Source: an uncultured Bacteroidota bacterium
GTDB taxonomy: Bacteria; Bacteroidota; Bacteroidia; Chitinophagales; Chitinophagaceae
DNA length: 64,000 bases
Direction of reading: 5' to 3'
Assembly: GCA_903906365.1 (NCBI GenBank)
Contig: CAIVKC010000007.1
Location: 1-64,000, forward strand
Notes under the pieces: generated by a model
Told to the model about the DNA's origin: nothing
The model's input: the letters and a program-made list of their open reading frames with translations, nothing else
The model's database searches: none
Shown here: one piece after another, positions 5,028-30,318 of the stretch
How positions within the stretch are numbered: the first letter of the stretch is position 1
Layout of the letters: every line of letters begins with the position of its first letter
Made by a program: the position numbers and the translations under genes

Positions 5028-6455
5028 TTGCCACACGAAGCCATTTCAGTTTTTGACATGTTTAAAATAGGTATCGGGCCTTCCAGCTCCCATACCCTGG
5101 GACCATGGAGGGCGGCACAACGTTTTTGCCGCTCACTCAGGGATCAACAACTTCTTTGGGACGTGGTTGACATACATATCCTGCTTTACGGTTCCCTGGC
5201 AAAGACAGGCCGCGGTCACGGAACCGATATTGCCATACAGCTCGGCCTGGGTGGAGATGACCCGGTTAGTTTTGAGGTAAATCGCATCCAATCCAAAATC
5301 CGCCATATACAGGAATCCCGAAAACTTCAGCTGGACGGCAGCCTGGAGATTGATTTTGATCCCTCCGCGGATATTGAATTCCTATACTCGGAGACCCTCC
5401 CTTATCATCCAAATGCCGTGACCTTCCTGGCAAGGACCCGGGGAGAGCGTCAAATCGCCGAAACCTATTATTCGATTGGGGGTGGATTTGTCAAAAAAGA
5501 GGGGGAGGAAAGTACTTCAGGCAATCAGCCTGACCTGCCTTTTCCCATAGATCATGCCAACGATCTGCTGCACTGGTGCCGTAAGACCGGTATGAGCGTA
5601 GGGGAGGTGGTGATGGAAAATGAAAATTGCTGGAGACCCGAATCGGAAACCAGAGCGGGATTATTAAAAATCTGGGAGGTTATGCATGCCTGTACATTCC
5701 GCGGATGCCATGAGCAGGGTACCCTACCGGGCGGACTGCTGGTCAAGCGGCGGGCAGCCGAATTAAACCGCAAATTACTGGGATCCCGCACCTATTCTGA
5801 TGAGGAGGGCTGGATTGCCGCCATCAGGGATGGGGGAAAGGATTTTTCTTATATCCTGGACTGGGTAAGTTGCTTTGCCCTCGCTGTCAATGAAGAAAAC
5901 GCTTCTTTTGGCCGTGTGGTCACCGCACCGACCAATGGGGCCGCCGGCGTTATTCCGGCCGTGCTGCATTACCTGGTGGTATTTGGCGAGGGCCATAGGG
6001 CGGAAAAGATCATTCAGTTTTTGCTGACAGCCTCGGAAATTGGAAGTATTTTTAAAAAAGGGTCCACCATATCGGCAGCGATGGGAGGTTGCCAGGCCGA
6101 AATAGGGGTCTCCTCAGCCATGGCGGCTGCCGCACTAACCGAATGTATGGGAGGTACCCAGCGACAGGTTTTAATGGCGGCGGAAATTGCGATGGAACAT
6201 CATTTGGGTCTCACCTGCGACCCAATCGGCGGTCTGGTTCAGATACCATGCATCGAACGCAATACCATGGGCGCCATCAAGGCCATTACGGCCTCCCAGC
6301 TGGCCCTTCAAAGCACACCTGACTTTGCCAAGGTTTCCCTGGATGCGGTCATTAAAACCATGTGGGATACGGCACTGGACATGAACAGCAAATACAAAGA
6401 AACCTCCGACGGGGGGCTGGCAGTTCATATTCCGTTGAGTCTGCCTGAATGCTAG
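5028..6455 (+). CDS. sdaA: L-serine ammonia-lyase (serine dehydratase), single-chain
   Basis: Converts L-serine to pyruvate and ammonia using an oxygen-sensitive [4Fe-4S] cluster. The N-terminal beta domain begins [20 protein letters not shown], the family signature; the alpha domain runs from about 185 and contains [17 protein letters not shown], the cluster cysteines in GGCQAEIG and [14 protein letters not shown], and the terminal [12 protein letters not shown]. Length 475 aa fits the fused type. There is no in-frame ATG upstream of the conserved N-terminus; TTG at 5028 is the best start, and the nearby ATG at 5020 is out of frame. Monocistronic. Confidence 0.93.
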
Positions 6456-6502
6456 CGAGGTCACATAGGGCATCCGGGCTTTCTCCTGAGCGGAGCGGGG
6501 GA

Positions 6503-7681
6503 TCAATTGTACAGCGGATTGGCCTCCATCTCTGAGAGGTCTACATGCCGGTAGTTGCGGATTTCCCGGTAAAGGGTATCTCTTTCTACGGGTTCCCTGT
6601 TGGCCTGACGGATCAGGGACACCAGCTGGGCCGTAGTCAGGGAAGGATTCTGCTCCTCAGAGCCGGCCATGGAATAAATTTTTGTAGAATCATCAATGGT
6701 TCCATCCAGGTCGTTGACTCCAAAAGCCAGGGTCAATTGAGCATTCTGTCTTCCCAGCATGGGCCAATAGGCTTTGAGGTGCGGAAAATTATCCATATAC
6801 AGCCTGGCTACAGCATATAGTTTCATGTCCTGTACGACGGAACTTTCCGGTACATGGCTCATATCATTATCCTTGTTTCGGAATTTCAGGGGTATGAAGG
6901 TATTGAAACCGTGGGTCTGGTCCTGTAATTGGCGGAGCCGTTCCATGTGATCAACGAGGTGTATGTACTTCTCTATATGTCCATACAGCATGGTCGCGTT
7001 GCTGTGCATTCCGAGTTCGTGGGCCGCCCTGTGTATGGCAAGCCAGCCCTCGGCGTCCACCTTATCAGCGCAAATCACCTGCCGGATTTCGGGATGGAAG
7101 ATCTCAGCGCCCCCGCCGGGCATAGAATCCAGGCCCGCTTCATGGAGTAATTTCATGCCTTCCTCCACGCTGACTTTGGCTTTTCTGAACATATAATCCA
7201 ATTCAACGGCCGTATATCCTTTGATGTGAAGATCCGGGCGGTGTGCCTTGATTTTTCTCATCAGGTCCGCAAAAAAAGCCAGGTTAAGCTTTGGATGAAC
7301 CCCGCCCACAATATGAACCTCCGTGACGGGCTTTCCATCGTAGCTTCGGATGATATCCATCATTTGTTCTGAACTCAGTTCCCAGCCTTCCTCCCGGTTG
7401 GCATAGAGCCTGGAATAGGCACAGAATGCGCAGGAAAAAACACAGACATTGGTGGGTTCAATATGGAAATTCCGGTTGAAATAGGTCTTGTCACCATGTA
7501 GCCTTTCTCTGACAAAATTGGCCAGTGAACCCGCATAGGATAGGCTGGCTTTCTCAAAAAGGAGTAAACCCTCCTGTGGGGTAATGCGCTGCTGGTTCAG
7601 TATTTTTTCACCAATGCTGCGCAAGCCGGTGTTTTTTTCACTGCTGATAATCTGCTGTATGGCATTTTCAGGGGTCCTCAT
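6503..7681 (-). CDS. mqnE: Aminofutalosine synthase (radical SAM, menaquinone synthesis)
   Basis: Catalyses the radical SAM step joining 3-[(1-carboxyvinyl)oxy]benzoate to SAM to form aminofutalosine in the futalosine route to menaquinone. The CxxxCxxC cluster motif is NVCVFSCAFCAY (Cys 80, 84, 87). MqnE rather than MqnC is indicated by SMPGGGAEIFHPE, ELGMHSNATMLYGH and the HGFNTFIPLKFRN block. An upstream in-frame TTG at 7705 would add 8 residues, but the promoter element at 7710-7717 would start transcription about at that codon, so I prefer the ATG at 7681 (392 aa). No other men/mqn gene is nearby. Confidence 0.92.
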   Translation of the reverse strand: MRTPENAIQQIISSEKNTGLRSIGEKILNQQRITPQEGLLLFEKASLSYAGSLANFVRERLHGDKTYFNRNFHIEPTNVCVFSCAFCAYSRLYANREEGWELSSEQMMDIIRSYDGKPVTEVHIVGGVHPKLNLAFFADLMRKIKAHRPDLHIKGYTAVELDYMFRKAKVSVEEGMKLLHEAGLDSMPGGGAEIFHPEIRQVICADKVDAEGWLAIHRAAHELGMHSNATMLYGHIEKYIHLVDHMERLRQLQDQTHGFNTFIPLKFRNKDNDMSHVPESSVVQDMKLYAVARLYMDNFPHLKAYWPMLGRQNAQLTLAFGVNDLDGTIDDSTKIYSMAGSEEQNPSLTTAQLVSLIRQANREPVERDTLYREIRNYRHVDLSEMEANPLYN

Positions 7682-7709
7682 GAGCTTATAGGGGCTTTTA
7701 TTCAAAGGG

Positions 7710-7717
7710 CAAATATA
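7710..7717 (-). promoter_or_regulatory. -7 promoter element TATATTTG for mqnE
   Basis: On the minus strand this is an exact TAnnTTTG. The implied start of transcription near 7706 leaves about 25 nt before the ATG at 7681. Confidence 0.5.
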
Positions 7718-7862
7718 CTATGAGTTCCTTATTGAAGGATACATTGACTAAACTTGGCCCGGCTATTATTATTTTGGCCGGCCGATTGCCACAATTTATT
7801 AACTTCCCGTATGGTACATGCAATCTGTAACCAGGTTTTAAACCATACAATCCATTTGATGC

Positions 7863-9104
7863 ATGAATATTCAAAAGCGCCTCATCCTGATGAACTTTCT
7901 GGAGTTCTTTACCTGGGGATCCTGGCTGATTTCACTTGGGGCTTACCTGAAAAACACCCTGCATTTTACGGGGGGGCAGGTAGGTAGCATTTATGGGACT
8001 ATGGGACTGGCCTCCCTTTTTATGCCCGCCCTCATGGGCATTGTGGCCGATAAATGGATCAATGCCGAACGGGTGCTGGGCCTCTGTCACCTGGGGGGCG
8101 GAATACTGTTATTATGGGCTTCTACCGTCAGGGATCCCTCCACGATGTACTGGGTAATGCTTTTCAATGCCATGGCCTATATGCCGACCATCGCCCTCAA
8201 CAATAGCGTCTCCTACCGGGTGCTGGAGCAACATGGGCTGGATATCGTGAAAATCTTCCCGCCCATCCGGGTATGGGGAACCATCGGATTTATATGTGCC
8301 ATGTGGATGGTAGATTTGAGTGGTTGGAACATCAGCCCCCTGCAATTATACATCGGGGCTGGTTCGGCCATGCTGCTGGGATTGTATGCCTTTACCATGC
8401 CATCCTGTCCTCCCTCGGGGTCCGTTCGCGGCGCTTCCCTTTCTTCGGCGCTTGGACTGGACGCTTTTGTCCTGTTCCGAAAAACTAAGATGATCGTCTT
8501 TTTTTCCTTTGCCCTCCTGTTGGGAGCGGCCCTTCAAATCACCAACACGTTTGGGGATTCTTTTTTGCTTGATTTCAAAAGCAGCTATCCTGATTCCTTT
8601 GCCGTAAAGCATACAAATATTCTTGCCTCGGTTTCGCAGATTTCCGAAACGCTATTTATCCTGGCCATCCCGTTCTTTTTGCGCAGATACGGCATCAAGA
8701 AAGTAATGATGATGAGTATTTTTGCCTGGGTATTCCGGTTTGGGCTTTTTGCGGTGGGCAACCCGGGTCATGGTATGGTCTGGCTGGTACTTTCCATGAT
8801 CATTTATGGCATGGCCTTCGATTTTTTTAACATTTCAGGCTCTCTGTTTGTGGAAAAGGAAGCCGATACCAATATCCGTGCAAGTGCCCAGGGATTGTTT
8901 ATGCTGATGACCAATGGGTTAGGTGCATTTATCGGTGGTAAAACCAGCGGCTGGGTGGTTGACTACTTTACCCACAACCAGACCATCGACTGGCCCGCTG
9001 TCTGGCTTACGTTTACCGGCTATGTGCTGCTCCTGGGTTTGGTTTTCCCCTTTTTGTTCAGCTATAAGCACGAGCCGGAGGTCAGCCCGCAGGCCCATCA
9101 TTAA
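7863..9104 (+). CDS. MFS nucleoside permease, NupG/XapB-like
   Basis: Twelve-helix proton symporter for nucleosides. The start (MNIQKRLILMNFLEFFTWGS then WLISLGAYL) matches the nucleoside:H+ symporter family, as do GLASLFMPALMGIVADKW after helix 2, FPPIRVWGTIGFICAMW in helix 5 and the late block SASAQGLFMLMTNGLG-type sequence (here IRASAQGLFMLMTNGLG). Length 413 aa is standard. No nucleoside-degrading enzyme lies beside it. The start codon follows an imperfect promoter element (TCCATTTG at 7851-7858) by four bases, so the mRNA may have almost no leader. Confidence 0.85.
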   Translation: MNIQKRLILMNFLEFFTWGSWLISLGAYLKNTLHFTGGQVGSIYGTMGLASLFMPALMGIVADKWINAERVLGLCHLGGGILLLWASTVRDPSTMYWVMLFNAMAYMPTIALNNSVSYRVLEQHGLDIVKIFPPIRVWGTIGFICAMWMVDLSGWNISPLQLYIGAGSAMLLGLYAFTMPSCPPSGSVRGASLSSALGLDAFVLFRKTKMIVFFSFALLLGAALQITNTFGDSFLLDFKSSYPDSFAVKHTNILASVSQISETLFILAIPFFLRRYGIKKVMMMSIFAWVFRFGLFAVGNPGHGMVWLVLSMIIYGMAFDFFNISGSLFVEKEADTNIRASAQGLFMLMTNGLGAFIGGKTSGWVVDYFTHNQTIDWPAVWLTFTGYVLLLGLVFPFLFSYKHEPEVSPQAHH

Positions 9105-25262: not shown

Positions 25263-25338
25263 GGGAGTCCCAGGCTCAATTAACCCTTCGTGCAACGATT
25301 CTGCATGAATGTTTGTCAACCTGGGGTAAGATGCATGC

Positions 25339-25905
25339 ATGGATGAACAACAGTTAGTCAAATCTTGTCTGAAAGGGGATCGGTCTGCCCAAAAGCAGCT
25401 CTATGCCACCTATGCCAGTCTGATGCTGGGGGTATGTTACCGATATACGAAATCCATGTCCGATGCAGAGGATATTTTGCAGGAAGGTTTCATCAAAGTG
25501 TTTAAGAACCTGCACCAGTTCAGATTTGAAGCTGACCTGGGTGCCTGGATACGCCGAATCATCGTGAACTCAGCCATTAATTACCTCAAAAAAAGCAGCA
25601 GGTACCAGGCTGAGCTTTCCTTTACAGATACAAGCCTGCATCCGGTTTCCAATGACAATCCCTCCCTTTTACTGGACGGAAAGGAACTGGCTGAACTCAT
25701 CCGCCAGCTTCCGCCTGGATATCAGACCGTTTTTAACCTGCATGCCGTAGAAGGTTACAGCCATGTGGAGATCGGAGAAATACTGGGGATCCATGAAGGC
25801 ACATCCAGATCGCAATACGCCAGAGCCAGAGCCCTGCTGATAAGTTGGATTAAACTCTATAATTCGGGCCCAAAAACAGAGACTTATGCCAGACCATCAA
25901 TTTGA
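25339..25905 (+). CDS. ECF-type RNA polymerase sigma factor
   Basis: Alternative sigma factor of 188 aa. Region 2 (about 10-85): QLYATYASLMLGVCYRYTKS then MSDAEDILQEGFIKVFKNL and GAWIRRIIVNSAINYLKK. Region 4 (about 115-175): QLPPGYQTVFNLHAVEGYSH then VEIGEILGIHEGTSRSQYAR. It overlaps the next gene by 20 nt, so the two products are translationally coupled, as is usual for sigma/anti-sigma pairs. First gene of a four-gene cluster to 29395. Confidence 0.95.
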   Translation: MDEQQLVKSCLKGDRSAQKQLYATYASLMLGVCYRYTKSMSDAEDILQEGFIKVFKNLHQFRFEADLGAWIRRIIVNSAINYLKKSSRYQAELSFTDTSLHPVSNDNPSLLLDGKELAELIRQLPPGYQTVFNLHAVEGYSHVEIGEILGIHEGTSRSQYARARALLISWIKLYNSGPKTETYARPSI

Positions 25906-27451
25906 AAACCAGGTTCGCCAGCATTTGGATGACCTACATTTCAACCCATCGGGAAAAGTATGGGAAAATGTGGATAAAGCCATTCATGGAGATCAGCCCC
26001 GCAAAAGGCCCTTTCTGTGGATTTGGGTCTTTGTGGGGCTGGTGACTTTCTCGTGTTGGTGGATCTTTCTGAGCAAAGGACATCTCAGGAACCTCCTTGA
26101 CAAAGGGGAACCCAAAACCCAAACATCTTTTAACAGGCAGCATCCTGCCGGCAGCGCGAGCACCCCTCTGACCGTTCCTTCCATTGGCTCCACCGGCGAT
26201 AAGGAAGCTTTATCCCCATCCTCCAGGCAGGGTGGGGCCGCTCTTACCAGCCCGGTAGGGACCTCTTCCCAACCAGGGAGCCCGGTTTCCAGCGCCGAAC
26301 CTGTTTTACATGGAAGGACCGGCCCTGCTGGCACCCGGATGGCGGGCATTACGGATGTTCCCAACATCCGGGACAAAAAAAGCAGCAGAAACCCCTGGCT
26401 AACGGGAGGGGCTAATGAGGCCGGGAGGCGCTCCAGGCTGGTGGATTTAAACAAGAGCAGCCATGGCAGGCAGGCTTTCCCATTAAGGGCTGCCGGCGGC
26501 CCAGGCAGGGGCACAGGCAATCCTAAGGGGGTTACCCAACCGGTGGCACTGGACCGCCATGCCCAACCACCCGTTTTTTCCAGCCAATCCGACGGGCCTG
26601 ACCGTTATGCGGGTTATCCGGCCTCTCTCATCGCTGTTCAGACAAAAATTCCGGACTTAAACCCGGTCGTTCCGGAAGGTACACAAGCCCGGGCATCCCT
26701 GGTTTCTTTTGCCCGGCCCAAAAACCTGAGTCACCAGCCTGGAGGGTGGAAACCGGTGTTGATGACAGGAGGGGGGATTTCGGGCCTGCAGGTCCGCAGC
26801 CGGGGCGTCCTTGGTGCCGCCCTCCCAGCTCCCGCCACCGGGGTAAGCAATCCCGGAACGGCCCCATATGGGTCTGCTTCGGTAAGGCCCAATATTCACT
26901 GGGAGGCGGGTTTACTATTTCAAAAACACCTTGGTAAAGGCGGGTTGCTGTTATCCGGTGGATTTTCCTACCATTATTATTCCAACCGCATTTCCACCGG
27001 AAGCCATGTGGACAGTATGATCAATATCTACTATCAAAATGCCCTTTACAATCAGGCATCCGGATTTTATCGGAGTGGCTCATCCTATATCCAGATCAAC
27101 CGGTACCATTTCCTGGAAATACCCCTGATGATACGGGCCCCCCTTAACAGCCATCAAAGGCATCCGCTATATTGGGAAACAGGACTGACTCCAGGATATC
27201 TGTTTGAAAGTCACGGTCTGTATTTTGATCCCAACTCCGGCATCTATTATAAGAATGACAGGTTGTATTCAAAATTTCAGCTGAAGGCAGCAGCCGGCCT
27301 GCTTCTTGGCTTCCCCTGGCTCAAGGGCCAACTGCAAATGGGCCCCCAATTGGAATATAGTCTGACCAATCTGCTGAATAAAACCGCTTCCAGCCGCGAA
27401 CACCTTTTTGCAGCCGGAATCAGGATCCTTTTTATTCCGGCAGAAAAATAA
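25886..27451 (+). CDS. Predicted anti-sigma-like protein with C-terminal outer-membrane beta-barrel
   Basis: A 521-residue protein coupled to the ECF sigma gene. Residues 1-42 are charged and hydrophilic (QFENQVRQHLDDLHFNPSGK then VWENVDKAI), where an anti-sigma domain would lie. One membrane helix follows at 43-62 (FLWIWVFVGLVTFSCWWIFL). A Pro/Gly/Ser/Arg-rich linker of about 220 residues leads to a C-terminal domain (about 290-521) with alternating beta strands, including GGLLLSGGFSYHYYSNRI, YHFLEIPLMIRAPL and GPQLEYSLTNLL, as in PorT/OmpA-like outer-membrane beta-barrels. If this topology holds, one chain crosses both membranes. The anti-sigma role is inferred from position; the N-terminal domain has no recognisable ZAS HxxxCxxC. 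Confidence 0.72.
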   Translation: MPDHQFENQVRQHLDDLHFNPSGKVWENVDKAIHGDQPRKRPFLWIWVFVGLVTFSCWWIFLSKGHLRNLLDKGEPKTQTSFNRQHPAGSASTPLTVPSIGSTGDKEALSPSSRQGGAALTSPVGTSSQPGSPVSSAEPVLHGRTGPAGTRMAGITDVPNIRDKKSSRNPWLTGGANEAGRRSRLVDLNKSSHGRQAFPLRAAGGPGRGTGNPKGVTQPVALDRHAQPPVFSSQSDGPDRYAGYPASLIAVQTKIPDLNPVVPEGTQARASLVSFARPKNLSHQPGGWKPVLMTGGGISGLQVRSRGVLGAALPAPATGVSNPGTAPYGSASVRPNIHWEAGLLFQKHLGKGGLLLSGGFSYHYYSNRISTGSHVDSMINIYYQNALYNQASGFYRSGSSYIQINRYHFLEIPLMIRAPLNSHQRHPLYWETGLTPGYLFESHGLYFDPNSGIYYKNDRLYSKFQLKAAAGLLLGFPWLKGQLQMGPQLEYSLTNLLNKTASSREHLFAAGIRILFIPAEK

Positions 27452-27504
27452 CAAAGAGGTGCAACGCGGGGATTCAAAATGGGGTCAACCTGAAAACAGT
27501 TGGT

Positions 27505-28776
27505 ATGAAAAAGGAAATTTTCAGTTTCAGCAACATGGTGGTCATCTGCATGGCGGGCCTTTTATTGTCTTCCTGCATGAAAGATAAGATTACCATGACC
27601 TATCGGTTATATTACCCGGTTTATCAGTCTTTGACTACATTCCGGGCACAGATAAAGGCCGGGGATCCCGTGGCCATCCAGCAGCCAGGAAAATTCTGCC
27701 TATGGGGGAATTTTATTTTTCTCAACGAACCACTCAAAGGAATCCATGTTATCGATAACACCGATCCGGTTCACCCGAAAAATGTATCCTTCATCAATAT
27801 TCCCGGCAATAATGAACTGGCCATCCAGGGGAACGCTTTATTTGCAGATGTATACGGTGACCTGGTTTCCTTCGATATCAGCAACCCTGCAGCGGCCGTT
27901 GCTAAAAATTTTGTGTCCAATGCCTTTCCCGAGAGAAGCAACTACTATCTGCCGGCGGGCAGTACGATGAACACCGATTCCATCCGGGTGGTAGCAAGCT
28001 GGAAATATAAGGATACTACGGTCAGTTACAATACTGTTAGCAACTTCTATCCGGGAGGCGTTATGTATTCCGGTTGTGTGAACTGCGCTTTTAATGTGGC
28101 ACCGGGCCCTGCCAGCTCTTCGGCGGGCACAGGACAAAATGGATCCACCGCGATGTTTTGTATCATCAATAACTACCTGTATACGGTTGGCAATTCTTCC
28201 CTCGGAACTTTTGATATTGCCGATCCTTTTAAACCCCTGTTCACCAATACACAGATGGTCGACTGGCATGTGGAAACCATTTACCCTTTCCGGAATAATT
28301 TGTTCATCGGCACCAATAATGGCGTATATATATATGATGTAAGTTCTTCCCCGGGAACCCCCGGTTTGGCAGGAGAATTCACCCATGTACGCGGCTGCGA
28401 TCCTGTCATTGCAGACGGCAACTATGCCTACGTAACCCTCAATGATTCCAGCGCCTGCCTGGGGTTTTATAATCAACTGCAGATTGTGGATATACGGGAC
28501 TTTGCCCACCCGTTCCTGGAAGTCAGTTATTCGATGACCCATCCAGGCGGCCTCTCCAAATCAGAAAACCTGCTGTTCATAGCAGATGGGTCAGGAGGTT
28601 TGAAGATATATAATGCGGCAGATGTAAATAGCCTGCAATTGATCAAACAATTCAAAGGTCCTGTAGCCGGGGACATCATAACCCGAAACGGGCTGGCCAT
28701 ACTCCTGGCAAGGGATGGTCTCTACCAGTACGATTACCGTGATTTAAACAATATTCATCAGATCAGTAAACTTTGA
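27505..28776 (+). CDS. LVIVD-repeat lipoprotein
   Basis: Exported lipoprotein (lipid Cys at about 24 in LLLSSCMKDK). The rest is a beta-propeller-type protein of LVIVD repeats, seen as FLNEPLKGIHVIDNTDPVHP, DLVSFDISNPA, LGTFDIADPFKP, GVYIYDVSSSPGTPG, LQIVDIRDFAHPFLE and LKIYNAADVNSLQ. Such propellers commonly bind protein or glycan partners on the cell surface. It starts 53 nt after the beta-barrel protein gene and 7 nt before the next, so it is part of the sigma-factor cluster. Confidence 0.85.
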   Translation: MKKEIFSFSNMVVICMAGLLLSSCMKDKITMTYRLYYPVYQSLTTFRAQIKAGDPVAIQQPGKFCLWGNFIFLNEPLKGIHVIDNTDPVHPKNVSFINIPGNNELAIQGNALFADVYGDLVSFDISNPAAAVAKNFVSNAFPERSNYYLPAGSTMNTDSIRVVASWKYKDTTVSYNTVSNFYPGGVMYSGCVNCAFNVAPGPASSSAGTGQNGSTAMFCIINNYLYTVGNSSLGTFDIADPFKPLFTNTQMVDWHVETIYPFRNNLFIGTNNGVYIYDVSSSPGTPGLAGEFTHVRGCDPVIADGNYAYVTLNDSSACLGFYNQLQIVDIRDFAHPFLEVSYSMTHPGGLSKSENLLFIADGSGGLKIYNAADVNSLQLIKQFKGPVAGDIITRNGLAILLARDGLYQYDYRDLNNIHQISKL

Positions 28777-28783
28777 TTCCATC

Positions 28784-29395
28784 ATGAAACCATTGAAACC
28801 CGTTTGTAAACTGATAACCCTGCTAATTTTCTTTGGCATCTCTTGCGCAAGCGCCCAGCAGGGCCCCTCTGCTAAAAAATGGAAACCTTATTCAGTTGTT
28901 AGCGCCGGACTGATAACCGGACAACTGGGGGCCTCTTCCGACATGCAGGTCATTCACGGTCTGGGATACCACAACTGGTTCTTGGGATTGGGAACAGGCC
29001 TGGATTATTACCGATTCCGGGGAATCCCGGTATTTATAGACCTGAGAAAGGAGTTCGGACATGCTAAAATCCGTCCGTTTCTCTATACCCAGGGCGGTAT
29101 CCAGTTCAACTGGCTAACCGCTAACCAGAAAGCAGCAGGCACTACGGCAGCTGCCTTTTCCAACGGCTTCTATTATGGCGCTGGAGGTGGATATAAATGG
29201 GCGTTCAACGCGAAGAATGCCCTTCTGCTAAGCGCCGGTTACAGCTACAAGCATGTCAGGACTACCGGTTTTCACCTTTATCCTAACCTGATGGCGCCCG
29301 AGCCACTTGGATGGCCGATTAACTATTTGCCCAGCAACACCATGCTGGATTATCAACTAAACAGGTTTGTATTTCGGGTTGGGTGGAGCTTTTAA
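28784..29395 (+). CDS. Outer-membrane beta-barrel protein (203 aa)
   Basis: Signal peptide (ITLLIFFGISCASAQ, cleavage after about 24) followed by amphipathic beta strands: PYSVVSAGLITGQLGAS, NWFLGLGTGLDYYRF, PFLYTQGGIQFNWL, GFYYGAGGGYKWAF and LLLSAGYSYKHVR. It ends in a terminal Phe (FVFRVGWSF), the usual C-terminal signature for assembly into the outer membrane. Fourth gene of the ECF cluster, 7 nt after the LVIVD gene. The last 4 nt overlap the convergent queG gene. Small porin-like or structural role is likely; no family name can be assigned. Confidence 0.75.
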   Translation: MKPLKPVCKLITLLIFFGISCASAQQGPSAKKWKPYSVVSAGLITGQLGASSDMQVIHGLGYHNWFLGLGTGLDYYRFRGIPVFIDLRKEFGHAKIRPFLYTQGGIQFNWLTANQKAAGTTAAAFSNGFYYGAGGGYKWAFNAKNALLLSAGYSYKHVRTTGFHLYPNLMAPEPLGWPINYLPSNTMLDYQLNRFVFRVGWSF

Positions 29396-30318
29396 TATCC
29401 AAGAAATCGCAGGTTTCGGCGTATGCCACTGAATTTGGCTCTTTTTAGCGGCGAGTCCCTAAATATCCTGTTGAATCCTTCCTCGGTGAGTTCCTGCCAG
29501 TCTTTGATGGAAAACTGAAGCACTTCCACCAGCGGGGTAAAGGCATCCGTGTTGGCGGGTTTTGAAAACCGGTTCCAGGGACAAACATCCTGGCATGTAT
29601 CACAGCCGAACATCCAGTTGTCAAAACGGCCTTTCATATCTTCGGGTATAAGCATATCCTTCAATTCTATGGTAAAATAGGATATACACTTACTTCCATC
29701 CACTATCTTATCCTCCAGGATGGCCTCCGTTGGACATGCTTCAATACATCTGCGGCAGCTGCCGCAGTAATCCCTTGCAAAGGGGTCATCATATTCCAGC
29801 TCAAGATCAACCACCAGGGTTGCAATAAAAAAGAATGAACCAGCCCCTTTGGTCAGGAGGTTGCCATTCTTACCGATCCAGCCCAATCCGCTCCGAACTG
29901 CCCAGCTGCGTTCCAGCACCGGCGCGCTGTCCACAAAGCCCCTTCCCTGCAAATGCCCAATCTCTGATTGTAAGGCAGCAAGCAAATGGCGAAGCCTTTC
30001 TTTTATGATATGGTGATAATCCTTTCCATATGCATACTTGGAGATCTTCGCAGTATGGGCCTTTTGACTCTTTGATGGAAAATAGCCCATCATCAGGGTG
30101 ATCACCGATTTTGCACCCGGAAACAGCTTTCTGGGATCGATCCTTAGATCAAAATGGTTTTCCATATATTTCATAGACCCCTGAAAACCTTTATTTATCC
30201 ATTGTTCGAGCCGTCGTGCATCATCGTCCAGGACTGATGCACGCGCTATACCGCAGTAATCAAAACCGTTATCTGCTGCCAGCCTTTTCACCAGCCTGGA
30301 CCGATCTGTCGTGTTCAT
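29392..30318 (-). CDS. queG: Epoxyqueuosine reductase
   Basis: Reduces epoxyqueuosine to queuosine in tRNA, using cobalamin and two [4Fe-4S] clusters. Signatures: DYCGIARASVLDDDARRLEQ then WINKGFQGSMKYMENHFDLR at the N-terminus, SWAVRSGLGWIGKNGNLL, DYCGSCRRCIEACPTEAI (cluster 1) and CDTCQDVCPWNRF (cluster 2). Length 308 aa is slightly short versus the HEAT-repeat-bearing form, which is usual for Bacteroidota. Divergent from the transglutaminase-like gene at 30397. Confidence 0.95.
   Translation of the reverse strand: MNTTDRSRLVKRLAADNGFDYCGIARASVLDDDARRLEQWINKGFQGSMKYMENHFDLRIDPRKLFPGAKSVITLMMGYFPSKSQKAHTAKISKYAYGKDYHHIIKERLRHLLAALQSEIGHLQGRGFVDSAPVLERSWAVRSGLGWIGKNGNLLTKGAGSFFFIATLVVDLELEYDDPFARDYCGSCRRCIEACPTEAILEDKIVDGSKCISYFTIELKDMLIPEDMKGRFDNWMFGCDTCQDVCPWNRFSKPANTDAFTPLVEVLQFSIKDWQELTEEGFNRIFRDSPLKRAKFSGIRRNLRFLGY

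Follow-up and report, generated by a model that had tools for sequence, protein, structure and literature searches.

A predicted Dma/Reo-type cell-envelope switch with a linked LVIVD lipoprotein gene in an uncultured Chitinophagaceae bacterium

Closest described systems

The closest described counterparts of the system considered here are Bacteroidota anti-sigma proteins that end in an outer-membrane barrel. In the available excerpts of the paper that describes it, Dma2 consists of an N-terminal anti-sigma domain, a transmembrane (TM) helix, a long disordered tether and a C-terminal beta-barrel, its gene adjoins that of an ECF21 sigma factor (ECF, extracytoplasmic function), and the Dma family is confined to Bacteroidota (PMC13088901). 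Excerpts of a second paper give a Phocaeicola anti-sigma factor a C-terminal outer-membrane barrel; when Phocaeicola was exposed to an antibacterial protein, thought to cause envelope stress, the sigma gene went up along with three NigD orthologs, and a lipopolysaccharide glycosyltransferase was part of the response (PMC9308784). A third source, likewise excerpted, names the pair EcfO/Reo and describes NigD proteins as surface lipoproteins dependent on it (PMC13114119). Here we analyze a locus in the window, by which we mean the whole stretch of 64,000 nucleotides (nt) at the start of contig CAIVKC010000007.1 (assembly GCA_903906365.1, forward strand) from an uncultured Bacteroidota bacterium of the family Chitinophagaceae. 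Its four genes encode an ECF sigma factor, a predicted anti-sigma protein of 521 amino acids (aa) whose gene we call dma, a lipoprotein with LVIVD repeats, and a small predicted outer-membrane barrel. We consider it likely that this locus is a cell-envelope switch of the Dma/Reo type.

Compared by description with the excerpted accounts of Dma1 and Dma2 of Bacteroides thetaiotaomicron, which work with Das/ECF21 sigma factors, the locus has a similar predicted layout of N-terminal segment, TM helix, tether and barrel, an adjacent sigma gene and a further operon gene. It belongs to another bacterial family, and carries the LVIVD lipoprotein and small barrel genes downstream rather than BT_1557 (DUF4943), whose family (PF16301) has no match in our genome; related loci do occur in two Bacteroidales metagenome-assembled genomes (MAGs; L325 and L328). 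With EcfO/Reo of Phocaeicola vulgatus, as excerpted, it shares an anti-sigma protein with an outer-membrane beta-barrel, predicted in our case, a proposed role in sensing envelope stress and a lipoprotein-rich predicted regulon, although the linked lipoprotein here is of the LVIVD and not the NigD type. EcfO of Bacteroides fragilis is reportedly the subject of a 2013 paper. The FecI/FecR/FecA system also signals from the outer membrane to an ECF sigma factor, as proposed here, but its receptor and anti-sigma factor are separate proteins and the receptor is TonB-dependent, whereas here one chain would suffice and its barrel is small. None of the four locus proteins matched a FecR or TonB-receptor family in Pfam.

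An earlier, sequence-only reading had proposed that a single chain combines an anti-sigma segment in the cytoplasm with a barrel in the outer membrane, and had set this arrangement outside known systems. The first part is supported, for the design is that published for Dma2 and EcfO/Reo and the relatives share N-terminus, TM segment, linker and barrel; the second is not. In the literature collection consulted, a search on anti-sigma factors, Chitinophagaceae and the outer membrane found no paper, nor did one linking LVIVD with lipoproteins and sigma factors.

Conservation of the locus

The four open reading frames (ORFs) lie where that reading put them, all on the plus strand. The sigma protein matches Sigma70_r2 (E 1.2e-17) and Sigma70_r4_2 (E 4.2e-16) in Pfam, and among 25 NCBIfam matches listed the general model TIGR02937 was the sole one above its cut-off. 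Relatives were sought in 147 genomes of the same family and in 296 genomes across the phylum, the family again included. By tblastn (E ≤1e-5), relatives of the 521-aa protein occur in 61 of the 147 family genomes, our own counted, and a 72-position profile of its N-terminus (E ≤0.001) matched 133 family genomes and 73 of the phylum-wide set. From 60 regions and the window we compiled 52 class-1 loci; L035, L051, L058, L060 and L081 (truncated, near-copies or N-filled) and four class-2 loci were left out of the comparison.

The sigma gene lies directly upstream of dma in 51 of these 52 loci (in two of them recognized by tblastn), the exception (L055) being at a contig end, so the layout is not a chance one. 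Wherever the overlap between the two genes was measured (49 loci), it was 14 nt (34 loci), 11 nt (8), 17 nt (4), 20 nt (2) or 8 nt (1). The LVIVD gene follows in 32 of the 52 loci and is itself followed by the small barrel gene in 27. Genome records yielded 563 confirmed LVIVD loci, of which we analyzed the best 80. Allowing at most 1500 nt between dma and the LVIVD gene, we found all four genes in order in 50; three lacked the barrel gene only and two the sigma gene only. No dma was called upstream of 11 LVIVD–barrel pairs and 14 LVIVD genes standing alone, six of these 25 lying at contig ends. The four-gene set appears in Niastella, Segetibacter and Sediminibacterium and in MAGs of Dyadobacter, Cyclobacteriaceae and Bacteroidales. 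With 50 of 80 loci in the full order, the arrangement is kept outside the genome in which it was first read. Two loci (L288 and L307) show an inverted order, in which the LVIVD gene comes first, with a divergent barrel gene before it, and the sigma gene and a fused Dma gene follow. In fused forms from another family (L227, L230, L231, L234, L235, L237 and L238), the sigma gene is closely preceded by a small gene for a lipoprotein-like product of about 137–152 aa, perhaps a NigD counterpart.

The predicted anti-sigma protein

A hydropathy scan of the 521-aa protein found a single TM segment, and the basic residues ahead of this helix make an N-in topology likely. The barrel is predicted from a profile match: OMP_b-brl_2 (PF13568) scores 28.2 bits, just over its cut-off of 27, and the same family is matched at E ≤0.01 by 43 of the 52 aligned class-1 proteins. 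Mean pairwise identity across these 52 is highest in residues 1–42 (40%), followed by the TM segment (25%), the barrel (23%) and the linker (12%). In the first of these regions P21 is invariant and F6, E7 and W26 are nearly so (44 alignment rows). The linker had been read as 220 residues rich in Pro, Gly and Ser; its composition is as described (12% G, 12% S, 11% P) and suggests a disordered periplasmic segment, whereas its length comes to 229 residues. Among the aligned proteins it ranges from 136 to 304 residues, with a median of 186, and a linker of at least 136 residues is long enough to cross the periplasm if extended. The C-terminal residue of class-1 Dma proteins is Lys in 33 of 52 and Arg in 7, instead of an aromatic residue such as the Phe that ends the small barrel. 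Against solved structures, the whole Dma alignment had its best match (E 0.0019) with a protein named NDC1, which was not used.

The same features bear on whether the 521-aa protein might simply belong to the outer membrane and have an atypical signal anchor, tied to the sigma gene by operon membership and nothing else. We regard this as extremely unlikely: residues 1–42 are the most conserved part of the protein, relatives keep its gene overlapping that of the sigma factor, and of 24 short forms that have this N-terminal segment but no barrel, 22 are encoded directly after a sigma gene (see below).

A shared promoter-like motif

The motif TGCAA[CT]G-N15-nnGTCA was found upstream of 47 of 56 sigma genes, a set that includes the window and four class-2 paralogues, and its spacing is 15 in all 47; shuffled sequences gave 1 match in 5600. 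The nine regions that lack it include the four class-2 paralogues (L061, L087, L090 and L091), which have TTGTCTA upstream instead of the TGCAACG motif. One of these, L061 (G000:C62:22000-33000, minus strand), encodes a second Dma-type protein in our own genome, of 484 aa; its sigma gene (7512-8087) and dma (5995-7449) do not overlap but stand 65 nt apart, and dma is followed by a gene for a 193-aa protein without a Pfam family and then by uvrC.

The perfect form, TGCAACG-N15-TTGTCA, occurs once in our genome, before the sigma gene. Across the 147 family genomes it occurs 163 times, against 17 for the reversed pattern, and the 61 genomes with a tblastn match to dma account for 141 of these sites (11 for the control). 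A relaxed search of our own genome returned five sites (control, one), among them 27460-27487, immediately before the LVIVD gene. Sites on C3, C41, C60 and at C7:119673 were not counted as targets because they lie inside longer ORFs of the opposite strand, that on C60 also inside a same-strand ORF, and one on C12 was set aside as no ORF of at least 80 aa starts within 150 bp downstream of it.

The LVIVD gene as a probable target

The sequence-only reading had cast the LVIVD lipoprotein and the small barrel as sensor parts. Allowing up to two mismatches within 150 bp upstream, the motif stands before 55 of 104 LVIVD genes (113 less 9 near-copies, window included), and the reversed pattern before none; 48 of the 55 sites lie 13–22 bp from the start codon. 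Among the other 49 LVIVD genes, three have a site with three mismatches, and for one the available upstream sequence is too short. Perfect motifs also stand 51–116 bp before LVIVD protein matches that lie far from dma, at G028:C3, G035:C5, G065, G070, G077:C192, G081:C129 and G091:C9. An early comparison by tblastn gave the motif (at most two mismatches) at 17 of 22 'unlinked' LVIVD genes in genomes called as having dma and at 8 of 17 in genomes called as lacking it. That division, made with a single query, is too blunt, since the N-terminal profile later matched 133 of the 147 genomes; on re-examination 42 of 71 LVIVD genes proved linked and 29 not, several of those first called unlinked being linked.

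Since the LVIVD gene often has its own copy of the sigma factor's promoter, whether linked to dma or not, a target is the more plausible reading, perhaps with some part in feedback. Both the lipoprotein and the small barrel would then probably be outputs and not sensor parts. The two proteins could nonetheless bind a ligand or the anti-sigma barrel and so start the signal, with the promoter serving as a feedback loop. The four-gene order, present in 50 of the best 80 LVIVD loci and 27 of 52 class-1 loci, would fit such a role, and sensors are often controlled by their own sigma factor. Yet in 20 of the 52 class-1 loci no LVIVD gene was found alongside the sigma–dma pair in the stretch examined, and the 11 LVIVD–barrel pairs with no dma called upstream (three at a contig end, one of those three with a dma fragment) point the same way, as do the different lipoproteins encoded after the same promoter elsewhere. 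We therefore hold a sensor role to be distinctly improbable.

The lipoprotein assignment itself is consistent among relatives. LVIVD repeats are recognized in the 423-aa protein at E 7.7e-9 (Pfam), and the cysteine of its lipobox (LLSSC) is invariant in 28 of 28 aligned LVIVD proteins, the window's included. Its best match to a solved structure, a haloalkylphosphorus hydrolase at E 0.007, was not used. The 203-aa protein had been described as a second barrel ending in Phe. The terminal Phe is there (...VGWSF), and the barrel is predicted from sequence features: the protein matched no Pfam family and no solved structure, and one of 28 relatives matched a Pfam barrel family.

A wider predicted regulon in relatives

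Among 150 perfect sites listed, 34 lie before dma, 15 before an LVIVD gene and 101 elsewhere. We examined 83 of the sites elsewhere, in 81 regions; 20 of the 101 come from genomes without a tblastn match to dma, and three of those 20 fall within the regions examined. Close downstream of 76 of the 83 sites lies an ORF encoding at least 60 aa, which in 39 cases starts 7–32 bp after the site; seven sites have no such ORF. By a hand-made rule, a lipobox is present in 34 of these 76 ORFs, compared with 22 of 386 neighboring ORFs (Fisher p 2.6e-16). The 76 fall into 13 clusters, each with two to four members, plus 38 singletons; a diverged sigma gene (L215) is among them. Representatives scanned with Pfam included one Bac_transf sugar transferase, one glycosyltransferase and a DUF4397 lipoprotein; others matched no Pfam family. 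In this mixture of lipoproteins and some sugar-transferase genes, the set after the motif resembles the published EcfO/Reo regulon.

Several results weigh against a sigma factor held by residues 1–42 and directed to these targets. The N-terminal profile matched none of the Pfam anti-sigma families and nothing convincing among solved structures (best E 0.072). Covariation between the sigma factor and the N-terminus, over 142 pairs left after gap and duplicate filters, exceeds that of shuffled pairings (z 4.3–7.7) yet appears also in the TM columns; because these share the signal, ancestry has not been removed, and we do not count the covariation as evidence of binding. In the 86 genomes without a tblastn match to dma there are still 22 perfect sites (control, 6). 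For 45 of the 104 LVIVD genes the best match has four to seven mismatches, which the search treats as no motif, and beyond the operon our own genome yielded no convincing target.

Split relatives

In other families of the same class there are short anti-sigma proteins of 210–317 aa that share the N-terminal segment but lack a barrel. We examined 24 such split loci (L226, L228, L232, L233 and L329-L348), picked by a short open frame from among the phylum-wide profile matches, of which they are a part. A related sigma gene is directly upstream in 22. In 12 of the 24 the product of the next gene has an OMP_b-brl_2 match (E ≤0.01), 10 of these above the Pfam cut-off; in the other 12 the next gene has no barrel match, and most encode a secreted-looking protein of no known family. 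At several of these latter loci the protein is about 345 aa long and has charged repeats. Read by eye, the region before the sigma gene contains GCAAC in many split loci, together with a different -10-like element.

These short, single-membrane forms, which share the N-terminal segment but carry no barrel themselves, lend some weight to a model in which the N-terminus holds the sigma factor, the barrel merely anchors the protein or is constitutively cleaved, and signalling proceeds by regulated proteolysis at the inner membrane. The presence of the same barrel family in the next gene at 12 of 24 split loci speaks against it: there the barrel accompanies the system even when unfused, although none was found in the other 12. 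On balance we think this model unlikely, though it deserves to be taken seriously.

On a tree of the sigma proteins (104 rows), the fused/split label requires three changes (two to three across bootstrap replicates), at least two of them forced by well-supported branches, compared with a mean of 22.7 for shuffled labels. At least two switches between the forms have therefore probably occurred. From L249-L328, nine selected loci entered the tree. Since it is unrooted, with several long branches, we make no claim about the direction of change. More tentatively, and with rather low expectations of its being right, we suggest that the four genes form a self-contained outer-membrane homeostat. Its main output, the LVIVD lipoprotein with the small barrel, would also cap the anti-sigma barrel, and the cell would in this way sense how much of its surface lipoprotein arrives at the outer membrane. 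The split loci would then represent a two-protein form, ancestral or derived, with fusion or separation having taken place two or more times.

Features of the locus

The features of the locus are collected in Table 1. The next gene in the window (29392-30318) is convergent and overlaps the last 4 nt of the small-barrel ORF; its sequence resembles an epoxyqueuosine reductase.

Table 1. Observed and predicted features of the four-gene locus, in window coordinates
Feature	Position	Strand	Basis or remark
Predicted autoregulatory ECF promoter, TGCAACG-N15-TTGTCA	25291..25318	+	20 bp before sigma ATG
ECF sigma factor, 188 aa, Das-like	25339..25905	+	Pfam Sigma70_r2, Sigma70_r4_2
Sigma/anti-sigma gene overlap, 20 nt; probable translational coupling	25886..25905	+	Overlap of 8-20 nt in 49/49 measured class-1 loci
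ORF of 521-aa Dma-type predicted anti-sigma protein	25886..27451	+	Pfam, hydropathy, alignment
Residues 1-42, conserved cytoplasmic predicted anti-sigma segment	25886..26011	+	F6, E7, P21, W26; basic residues just before TM helix
Residues 44-62, predicted inner-membrane helix	26015..26071	+	Hydropathy
Residues 63-291, Gly/Ser/Pro-rich predicted periplasmic linker	26072..26758	+	229 residues
Residues 292-521, predicted outer-membrane beta-barrel region	26759..27448	+	OMP_b-brl_2 on 328-497
Second promoter-like site, TGCAACG-N15-GGGTCA	27460..27487	+	17 bp before LVIVD ATG
LVIVD-repeat lipoprotein, 423 aa, predicted regulon output	27505..28776	+	Pfam LVIVD; lipobox Cys24
Secreted predicted small outer-membrane barrel, 203 aa, usual neighbor of the LVIVD gene	28784..29395	+	Barrel predicted from sequence

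Proposed mechanism and implications

As a Dma/Reo-type switch, the locus would work as follows. The sigma and anti-sigma proteins would be translated together from their overlapping genes. The anti-sigma protein would sit with its barrel in the outer membrane, its disordered linker across the periplasm and one pass through the inner membrane, and residues 1–42 would hold the sigma factor. A change at the outer membrane, which by analogy with Reo may be envelope stress, would free the sigma factor to read TGCAACG-N15-TTGTCA before its own operon and the related site before the LVIVD gene. The LVIVD lipoprotein and the small barrel would then be raised and the cell surface remodelled; in relatives, other small lipoproteins and polysaccharide-assembly enzymes may be raised as well. 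Of this scheme, the sequences themselves show how the genes and domains are arranged, the motif and which genes follow it; recognition of the motif by this sigma factor, sigma binding, topology, signal, release and the role of the outputs are inferred.

The analysis places the Dma/Reo design in the Chitinophagaceae. Relative to the excerpted content of the cited papers, it adds a promoter-like motif with a fixed 15-bp spacing (no literature search was aimed at the motif itself), a set of predicted targets, and the split relatives, which permit a direct test of what tethering to a barrel adds to an anti-sigma protein. The lipoprotein theme that the predicted regulon has in common with Phocaeicola EcfO suggests that these systems may belong to one phylum-wide outer-membrane stress response.

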